A stretch of 64,000 nucleotides of DNA from Parapedobacter lycopersici. GTDB lineage: Bacteria; Bacteroidota; Bacteroidia; Sphingobacteriales; Sphingobacteriaceae. The notes below the pieces were generated by a model. It had not been told where the DNA came from, ran no database searches, and was given only the letters and a program-made list of their open reading frames with translations. Both the position numbers and the translations under genes were made by a program. The stretch lies in NCBI RefSeq assembly GCF_024643285.1, contig NZ_JAMSLW010000004.1, positions 124,001-188,000 of the forward strand. The letters are read 5' to 3'. Numbering within the stretch: position 1 is the first letter of the stretch; each line of letters starts with the position of its first letter. This document shows positions 20,836 to 23,700 of this stretch, piece by piece.

Positions 20836-20918
20836 AACAATGTGCTATTTGCTGCGCTGCAAAAATACGCATTGCCGATGAGCGGCCGGTCTTGCCAATG
20901 TCAAAACTGGTGCAGCAG

Positions 20919-21272
20919 CTAACGCAGCATCTCCCGGTCTTTCCGGGGCAGCCCGGCCACCACCAGGTCGTAGCTATGGTCAATAAACCGGGCTAATGTC
21001 CGGTCATCCAGCTCACCGTTACACACAACGGTGTTCCAGTGCTTTTTATTCATGTGATAGGCGCCTGACACCGAATGCGGATGCTGTTCGCGCAGTTCCA
21101 GCGCATACGCCGGATCGCATTTTACGTTAAACGACAGGGGCTGGCTATCCATCCCGGTCAGGAGGAAGATTTTTCCCGTCACCTTAAACACCAGGGTATC
21201 CGGTCCGAATGGACAACCCTCCGTAACCCCGGGCTTCCGGAGGCAGTAATCACGCAATTGTTCGATGTGCAT
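20919..21272 (-). CDS. MmcQ/YjbR family protein
   Basis: 117 residues of the CyaY-like-fold YjbR family: LRDYCLRKPGVTEGCPFGPDTLVFKV at the start (split here as YCLRKPGVTEGCPFGP), the MNKKHWNTVV core, and the C-terminal SYDLVVAGLPRK. YjbR proteins are proposed DNA-binding or nucleic-acid-associated proteins with little direct functional evidence. It lies 83 bp upstream of the thioredoxin-fold gene on the same strand and may be cotranscribed. Upstream of its start is the repeat-rich region 21273-21774. Confidence 0.88.
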   Translation of the reverse strand: MHIEQLRDYCLRKPGVTEGCPFGPDTLVFKVTGKIFLLTGMDSQPLSFNVKCDPAYALELREQHPHSVSGAYHMNKKHWNTVVCNGELDDRTLARFIDHSYDLVVAGLPRKDREMLR

Positions 21273-21385
21273 GGGCGAGTTTACTAATGAACATCAATTA
21301 TACGGAAAAAGCAGCAATCCAACCAGCGGTCTCAGTTGTTTTCCACATTCCGGTCGCTTCCTATCCGTCGTATATCCGGGAGGTG

Positions 21386-21543
21386 TTCGAGTGCGCTTCG
21401 ACTGTTCTTCGAGACTGGTTCGAGGCTTCTTCGAGACTCGTTCGACCCCTGTTCGACTCCGCTTCGGGGCTGCTCGGCATGCAATCCGTTGCGTTCCGAA
21501 GACGTTCGAGGGATCCCCGAAGAAGCCTCGAACCAGTCTCGAA
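21386..21543. repeat. 11-bp-phased TTCGA repeat array with inverted copy
   Basis: Eight consecutive 11-bp units start at 21386, 21397, 21408, 21419, 21430, 21441, 21452 and 21463; seven begin TTCGA and the eighth TTCGG. Positions 6-11 are looser, often GACT plus C or G. On the minus strand a second run of the same units reads from 21543 down to about 21500. Units 3, 4 and the start of 5 (21408-21433) are identical in inverted orientation to 21518-21543: 26 nt with no mismatch, 84 nt apart. The 11-bp step is not a multiple of three, so it does not encode a peptide repeat; it is close to one helical turn. Confidence 0.9.
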
Positions 21544-21605
21544 CGATAGTCAACGCAGGCCGCAAGACGACTGCAATGTCGGTCGGGTACAATATAGCAG
21601 ATTAC

Positions 21606-21622
21606 GCAGCATTCCATGCTGC
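21606..21622 (+). promoter_or_regulatory. Short hairpin upstream of dnaK
   Basis: Perfect stem GCAGCAT-TCC-ATGCTGC (21606-21622) followed by AAAAAA. About 150 bp before the dnaK start. It could be a leader RNA hairpin or a protein site; it is not a CIRCE element (TTAGCACTC-N9-GAGTGCTAA is absent). Confidence 0.4.
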
Positions 21623-21774
21623 AAAAAATGACACAATGTCAGGATTCTGTAACCCGACCTGTACTTTATACGTTAAACTGCAAATAATTGGCACGGTACA
21701 GGGATTGGCACAGCCATTGATACACATTAAAAGGTAAAATTTTGTTCATCAACGTATAAAAGGAAAATTAAGAT

Positions 21775-23700
21775 ATGTCAAAAATTATTGGAATCGACTT
21801 AGGGACTACCAACTCCTGCGTAGCCGTGATGGAAGGCAACGAGCCGGTAGTGATCACGAACAACGAAGGAAAGCGCACAACACCGTCTATTGTGGCTTTC
21901 GTGGAGAATGGCGAGCGCAAAGTGGGAGATCCTGCCAAACGTCAAGCCATTACTAACCCCAAAAAGACCGTATATTCCATCAAACGGTTTATGGGAACTA
22001 CCTACGATGAGGCCAGCAAAGAGGCTAACCGCGTACCGTACACCCTTGTTAAGGGCGACAACAACACCCCCCGGGTGGAAATTGACGACCGCAAATATAC
22101 GCCTCAGGAAATTTCTGCGATGATTCTGCAGAAGATGAAAAAAACCGCTGAGGATTTTCTGGGCCAGGAAGTAACTGAAGCCGTGATTACCGTGCCGGCT
22201 TACTTTAACGACGCCCAGCGGCAAGCAACCAAAGAAGCCGGTGAAATTGCAGGCTTGACCGTAAAGCGCATCATTAACGAACCTACGGCCGCTGCACTGG
22301 CTTATGGATTGGACAAGGCCAATAAAGACATGAAAATTGTCGTGTTTGACTGCGGTGGCGGTACCCACGACGTTTCCGTGCTGGAGTTGGGCGATGGGGT
22401 ATTTGAAGTAAAATCCACGGATGGCGATACGCACCTGGGTGGTGACGACTTTGATCAGGTTATCATCGACTGGCTGATCGACGAATTTAAAAGCGAAAAC
22501 AACGATTTCGACCTCAGCAAAGACGCGATGGCGCTGCAACGGTTGAAAGAAGCTGCTGAGAAGGCCAAAATCGAACTGTCAAGTTCCTCTTCCACGGAAA
22601 TTAACCTGCCGTACATCACGGCCGACCAAACCGGGCCCAAACACCTGGTGCGCACATTAAGCCGTGCGAAATTTGAACAGCTGGCGGACGGGTTGATCAA
22701 ACGTACCATTGATCCCTGTAAATCCGCATTGAAAAATGCAGGCTACTCTCCCGCCGATATCGATGAGATTATTCTGGTGGGTGGTTCCACCCGTATTCCG
22801 GCCATACAGGATGCCGTAAAAAAATTCTTTGGCAAAGATCCGTCAAAGGGTGTAAACCCGGACGAGGTAGTTGCGCTCGGCGCCGCTATCCAGGGCGGGG
22901 TATTGACCGGAGAGGTGAAGGACGTATTGCTCCTGGACGTTACCCCACTGTCATTGGGTATTGAAACCATGGGCGGTGTAATGACCAAACTGATTGAATC
23001 GAACACCACGATTCCGACGAAAAAATCGGAAGTGTTCTCCACCGCGTCTGACAACCAGCCTTCAGTGGAAATCCACATTCTGCAGGGCGAGCGTCCGATG
23101 GCCGCGCAAAACCGCACCATCGGCAGGTTCCACCTGGACGGTATTCCACCCGCACCGCGCGGCATACCACAGATCGAAGTAACGTTTGATATCGATGCCA
23201 ATGGTATTCTGCATGTATCGGCCAAGGATAAAGCTACCGGCAAGGAACAGAAGATCCGTATTGAAGCTTCTTCCGGCCTGTCGGACGACGAGATCAAGAA
23301 AATGAAGCAGGAAGCAGAAGCCAATGCCGAATCCGACAAAAAGGCGAAAGAGGAAATCGACCTGCTGAATGCAGCGGATGCGCTGGTTTTCTCCACCGAA
23401 AAGCAACTGAAGGAATACGGCGACAAGATCAGTGCCGACAAAAAAGCACCGATCGAAGAAGAGCTGAAAAAATTGAAGGATGCGCATGCCGCCAAAGACT
23501 TCGCTGCGATTGAAACAGCGCAGGCTGCACTGCAAAATGCCTGGAATGCGGCTTCGGAAGAATTGTACAAGGCGTCACAGGACGCAGCAGCTTCCGGACA
23601 GCCAGCCGGTGATGCCGGTGCCGGACAGCAGGCAGGCGGTGGCACGGATGATGTGACCGATGTGGAATATGAAGAAGTGAAGGACGACGATAAAAAATAG
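21775..23700 (+). CDS. dnaK: Molecular chaperone DnaK (Hsp70)
   Basis: 641 residues, full length. The ATPase domain starts [17 protein letters not shown]; phosphate 2 region reads [17 protein letters not shown], with His where most DnaKs have Phe; the adenosine motif is [13 protein letters not shown]; the interdomain linker is [15 protein letters not shown]; a lidded substrate domain follows, and the tail is Gly/Ala-rich ending in acidic EEVKDDDKK. It folds nascent and stressed proteins with DnaJ and GrpE, neither of which is adjacent. The gene stands alone, with a strong terminator at 23722-23752. Confidence 0.98.

Follow-up and report, generated by a model that had tools for sequence, protein, structure and literature searches.

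A dispersed repeat of convergent, 11-bp-phased TTCGR arrays upstream of dnaK in Parapedobacter lycopersici

The window analyzed here is a 64,000-nucleotide stretch of the Parapedobacter lycopersici genome (NZ_JAMSLW010000004.1, positions 124,001 to 188,000), in which an array of short phased repeats lies between two divergently oriented genes. On the left, a small open reading frame on the reverse strand (20919-21272), which we take to resemble MmcQ/YjbR, begins 114 bp from the array, and the same gene pair is found in seven congeners. On the right stands dnaK on the forward strand (21775-23700), whose conserved upstream block (ATGACACAATGTCA .. TTGGCAC) is retained, such that the repeat element lies outside this block. 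Within the dnaK upstream region (window positions 21626-21730; loci L181-L189), a near-palindrome, ATGACACATTGTCAT (ATGACACAATGTCA in the window), is kept in 9/9 Parapedobacter genomes, as are the TTGGCAC-type motifs. The second of these motifs resembles a sigma-54 -24/-12 site (TTGGCACAAGGCTTGTT), which would be unusual for dnaK.

The element opens with a left array of eight 11-bp units on the forward strand (21386-21473; consensus TTCGR-S-N-S-Y-K-S), seven of which begin with TTCGA (at 21386, 21397, 21408, 21419, 21430, 21441 and 21452) and the last with TTCGG (at 21463). A core without assigned strand follows (21474-21505; TCGGCATGCAATCCGTTGCGTT CCGAAGACGT), with the short palindrome GCAA-N4-TTGC inside it, and then a right array on the reverse strand (21506-21543), whose inverted YCGAA units stand at 21506 (TCGAG), 21517, 21528 and 21539, again at 11-bp steps. 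An arm of 26 nt in the left array (21408-21433, forward strand) is the exact reverse complement of its partner in the right array (21518-21543, reverse strand), with 84 nt between the two, and ungapped extension carries the match to 51 nt at 80%. Both the eight strictly phased units and the 26-nt arms had been described in a first-pass annotation of this DNA, and both are exact to the nucleotide. Beyond the right array, a tail (21544-21600) bears a faint family likeness (CTGCAATGTCGG); this end of the element fades, with pairwise identity reaching background ~105 bp beyond the core.

A search of the whole genome for TTCGA-N6-TTCGA-N6-TTCGA gave 69 matches in 21 clusters, compared with 0 for the reversed control, placing the array far above chance. 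The initial selection relied on the TTCGA motif, which biases the set towards intact units, though it asked for no more than three units in a row; a sequence model built from 18 copies found ~22 loci in this genome and two weak ones (L228 and a locus at C12:89203). The array is therefore not the local accident that the first-pass annotation had allowed for in case no second copy were found. One architecture is common to all clusters, namely a TTCGR-N6 left array, a core and a YCGAA-N6 right array, with the two arrays convergent, and the elements are ~160-230 bp long with ~5 to 14 left units per copy. The core is the best-conserved part apart from the TTCG grid; it usually reads TTCGGGGCTGC TCGGCGTGCAAT(C/G)C(G/A)TTGCGTTCCGAAG, with a different centre in L020, L022 and L024, and the window's left array shares its register and its last unit, TTCGGGGCTGC, with most copies in the genome. 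An inverted duplication, as suggested earlier for the window, fits the 26-nt arms, which are peculiar to this copy, but does not extend to the convergent layout, which is family-wide and in which opposite spacers are usually non-complementary. The idea of a local minisatellite in which an inverted duplication arose by chance can be practically dismissed: some lone array matches in other phyla are indeed plain 11-bp TTCGA minisatellites (e.g. L064 and L066, in unrelated bacteria), but the ~22 copies in this genome have one core and one unit order, and their spacers differ from unit to unit.

Simple ORF calls on 21 copies place 14 between co-directional genes and 6 between convergent ones; the window's copy is the single one with divergent neighbours. 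Of the 14 co-directional copies, 11 are oriented with their genes. Most genes beside the copies have housekeeping roles (rimP, a tRNA synthetase, ribosomal L3, glutamate dehydrogenase, a metA-type gene). A link to replication strand was rejected, as orientations alternate within contigs when inspected by eye. The 22 copies are more regularly spaced than chance placement would give (smallest gap 41.8 kb, P ~0.001; CV of gaps, P ~0.01), a pattern noticed post hoc in a single genome. Such over-dispersion would fit either insertion immunity or a chromosomal role.

Within the arrays, motif and pitch are fixed and the spacers are free. Left-arm steps equal 11 bp in 199/201 cases, and in the right arm most steps are multiples of 11 bp, with many copies having one of 10 bp beside the core. 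When copies were aligned on the core alone, without gaps, pairwise divergence was 1.8% in TTCG vs 43% in the spacers, and over the six core-proximal units 0/24 TTCG sites were variable, compared with 28/30 spacer sites. The same holds among seven near-identical copies of Sphingobacterium sp. UT-1RO-CII-1 (0/52 variable sites in TTCG vs 13/72 in spacers), and the flank preference, [TG][CG]TTCG[AG], is equal in both arms. Conservation of motif and pitch with free spacer and stem, and one motif serving both arms, is the trace expected of a protein that binds cooperatively along one face of double-stranded DNA. The invariant grid and strict steps thus lend sequence-based support to a multi-site binding array, one of three readings offered by the first-pass annotation, and we consider, with modest confidence, that the element is probably a mobile or duplicating one whose double-stranded DNA sites, set in phase, serve a putative protein. 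Points against this reading include the motif-based choice of copies, the stable RNA folds of some single copies (z = -7) and the alignment of 11/14 co-directional copies with their genes.

The last two of these bear on a different explanation, in which the transcribed arms form a long hairpin, the 11-bp pitch corresponds to a turn of A-form helix, and the RNA terminates or stabilises transcripts at gene ends or marks them for processing. The single-copy fold is strong (MFE -95.5 kcal/mol, z -7.0), the tip hairpin GCAA-N4-TTGC is conserved, perfect stems are present in some relatives (G360), and the placement of the copies, with 1/21 between divergent genes and most co-directional ones aligned with their genes, is in keeping with it, although these counts depend on simple ORF calls. 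Against it, mirrored spacers form 252 Watson-Crick pairs in fixed register vs 265 +- 9 when right arms are permuted among copies, and arm-to-arm pairing at spacer position 5 is likewise at chance; with the register left free, an earlier test had shown a slight excess of pairs (427 vs 379 +- 18), owed to four copies, the window's among them. The consensus fold spans the tip only, arms differ in unit number, clearly so in Sphingobacterium copies, and Rfam gave 0 matches at E<=1 over 20900-22000. Folding energy pointed to no transcribed strand, as neither was consistently better. Since opposite-arm spacers do not covary, we rejected hairpin RNA, the second of the readings offered earlier, as a general constraint; the strong single-copy folds are a product of the TTCGR/YCGAA grid, to which the window's copy adds its local perfect arm, and the lack of covariation together with the unequal arms suits binding sites better than a stem. 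We regard a structured RNA as quite improbable.

The third earlier reading, a small mobile repeat, draws support from the sites that are empty in relatives. Upstream of dnaK, the element is absent in 8/8 congeners, seven of which have the same left neighbour, while the dnaK upstream block is otherwise conserved; downstream of leuS, where P. lycopersici carries copy L028, it is again absent in 8/8 congeners, four of which keep the same next gene nearby. The copies at these two sites were therefore gained in this lineage. The sequence model found fewer loci than in this genome in most congeners and none in two. The flanks of our copies did not match those of relatives' copies except at L019, where a block ~2 kb away, inside the following TonB-type receptor gene (ORF call), is common to several relatives' copies. 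The copies showed no target-site duplication, no terminal repeats and no sharply defined right end, the left end varies in unit number, and the congeners are too diverged for junction alignment, so that the case for transposition comes from the absence of copies in relatives. A Y1 (RAYT) transposase (PF01797) gave 0 matches in this genome, with control matches in 5/14 genomes, and a plasmid or phage origin was rejected, as the element matched neither. In one congener, an IS256-like transposase gene (L197, recognised by eye) follows leuS, where the window species has its copy.

A mobile repeat need not serve its host. The element may be selfish, like MITEs or BOX, with TTCG intact only because spreading copies need to be recognised by a transposase acting in trans; its dispersal, lineage specificity, modular build and variable unit number would all agree with this, and the over-dispersion (nearest pair 41.8 kb, P ~0.001) could be a product of transposition immunity. 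However, resident copies of such an element would be expected to lose TTCG at the spacer rate, and TTCG is kept where spacers are 43% different; the genome also lacks a Y1 transposase, and neither terminal repeats nor target duplications were seen. On balance we find a selfish element without host role possible but unlikely.

The window copy is an intergenic member of a repeat family dispersed in Bacteroidota: Sphingobacterium, Olivibacter, Daejeonella and Breznakibacter are among the groups with related arrays, and control patterns gave no match. A four-unit pattern gave 1 to 95 matches per genome in 16 named Bacteroidota genomes, selected for having already given a match, and the reversed control gave 0 in all of them. 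A strict full-architecture pattern matched 5 of 395 Bacteroidota genomes and its control 3, indicating that it is too strict for mapping the distribution and that the array pattern serves better. In another Bacteroidota genus, short relatives of ~110 bp (L205, L206, L207, L211 and L214) carry the tip TTCGGAAAAA..TTTTTCCGAA. Four copies (L161, L168, L171 and L220) lie upstream of DUF6266-family genes or look-alikes, the Pfam match having been tested for L161, and L168 and L171 adjoin blocks of TTGGCA-type repeats. The repeat is apparently undescribed; no account of it was found in a literature search whose scope left out most subscription journals.

The window copy and most copies in its genome are intergenic. 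Many Sphingobacterium, Parapedobacter and Olivibacter copies, along with L019 and L026 of this genome, instead lie in the 5' part of long open frames that run into the signal peptide of a TonB-type receptor (SusC) or TlpA-like gene. At 15 such leader loci, the frame from the conserved start through the element to the signal peptide holds 0 stops, and the remaining five frames hold 2-24 each; seven copies of Sphingobacterium sp. UT-1RO-CII-1 are all placed in this way. These loci could indicate an element built stop-free so that open frames can accommodate it, in the manner of Rickettsia palindromic elements, with intergenic copies secondary. Leader substitutions, however, fall on the three codon positions without bias (23/23/25, 15/12/14 and 26/16/24; dN/dS 0.6-0.8), which argues that the frame is open while the peptide is free, and 11 bp is not a whole number of codons. 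The stop-poor frames noted in the first-pass annotation hold up on counting: 1850 nt of arrays contain 3 stops in six frames, vs 15 with spacer letters shuffled, a shortage accounted for by the position-specific letter preferences of the unit. A coding repeat was rejected for the window copy, and elsewhere frames are open without codon bias; with most of the genome's copies intergenic, we give a coding-compatible element little credence.

Several features of the leaders deserve mention in their own right. Where the leaders extend 500-1000 nt before SusC/TlpA-type signal peptides (L219, L221-L226; L163-L167; L019; L026; L177), one frame only is stop-free. One Sphingobacterium genome has seven leaders that are nearly identical yet mosaic, and the genes behind them differ. 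HTH-like genes often begin near leader copies (L221, L222, L223, L225, L026, L166 and L167), with Pfam recognising an HTH only at L166 and L167 and, weakly, at L223.

Returning to the phased array of protein sites, we chart a tentative model in which a protein would recognise the functional part of the element as double-stranded DNA, from one face of the helix. PhoB/OmpR-type regulators and ParR-type centromere proteins bind 11-bp repeats, and by analogy the putative protein would bind head-to-tail along each arm, the two arms meeting at the core. Candidate binders would be a host protein with an architectural or regulatory role, or the element's own transposase-like protein, and the element may have spread by duplicative insertion or recombination driven in trans. 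More speculatively, and in our view doubtful as it stands, the arrays might constitute a new chromosomal system in which a protein polymerises along convergent TTCGR arrays set at intervals on the chromosome (42 kb between the closest two) and organises the DNA or tunes nearby genes; the arrays in SusC/TlpA-type leaders, whose frame is kept open, would belong to it and possibly serve leader exchange between loci. If the arrays are binding sites, a DNA-binding system recurs across Bacteroidota, and its grammar of motif, pitch and polarity makes the protein searchable by pull-down. If they are mobile, they form a type of modular repeat that lacks both the customary ends and the customary transposase. 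The leader copies pose a separate question, namely why surface-protein genes keep long frames open without a conserved peptide.

Several known repeat systems share part of this design. PARCEL repeats (PMC2996958) have a similar dyad symmetry and patchy spread, but consist of a 75-nt coding repeat with a 25-residue motif (PMC2996958); we rejected this identity, as the repeat length differs and the element consists of 11-bp units that are not in frame. Rickettsia palindromic elements (cited in PMC10969869 and PMC2996958) are likewise palindromic and, in some species, lie within open frames, whereas the window copy is intergenic and leader amino acids are not conserved here. An open frame is retained at the leader loci and not at the window copy. 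REP/BIME sequences with RAYT (PMC3733652, PMC2817692) resemble the element in being palindromic, extragenic and present in many copies; REPs, however, measure 20-40 bp, bear a GTAG or CGTC tag and are associated with a Y1 transposase (PMC3733652, PMC2817692). The element, at ~160-230 bp, has no common tag and resides in a genome without Y1 transposase, and on these grounds of size, tag and enzyme a REP/RAYT identity was rejected.

BOX elements are modular, the number of inner repeats varying between copies, and their unit is 45 bp long; our element is modular in the same sense (~5 to 14 left units). As in BOX elements of Streptococcus pneumoniae and other MITE-like repeats (PMC10969869), its copies are dispersed, intergenic and of dyad symmetry, and, as with MITEs, they are missing at orthologous sites of relatives (dnaK and leuS; 8/8 congeners). 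It differs from both in its 11-bp unit, fixed TTCGR, free spacer and two convergent arrays, and no defined ends, terminal repeats or parent transposase were found for it in searches that covered Y1 transposases. In the boxes of PhoB/OmpR-type regulators and in parC of ParMRC, a short motif is repeated head-to-tail once per helix turn and is bound cooperatively on one face. We know of no such box, nor of a parC site, that uses TTCGR as its motif, and parM/parR genes are absent beside the element, whose neighbours are dnaK and the MmcQ-like frame in the window and mostly housekeeping genes elsewhere. The element also departs from these systems in its many dispersed copies, its arms of up to ~13 units and their convergence; it resembles the PhoB/OmpR boxes in its head-to-tail 11-bp direct repeats (199/201 steps), a likeness read from sequence.
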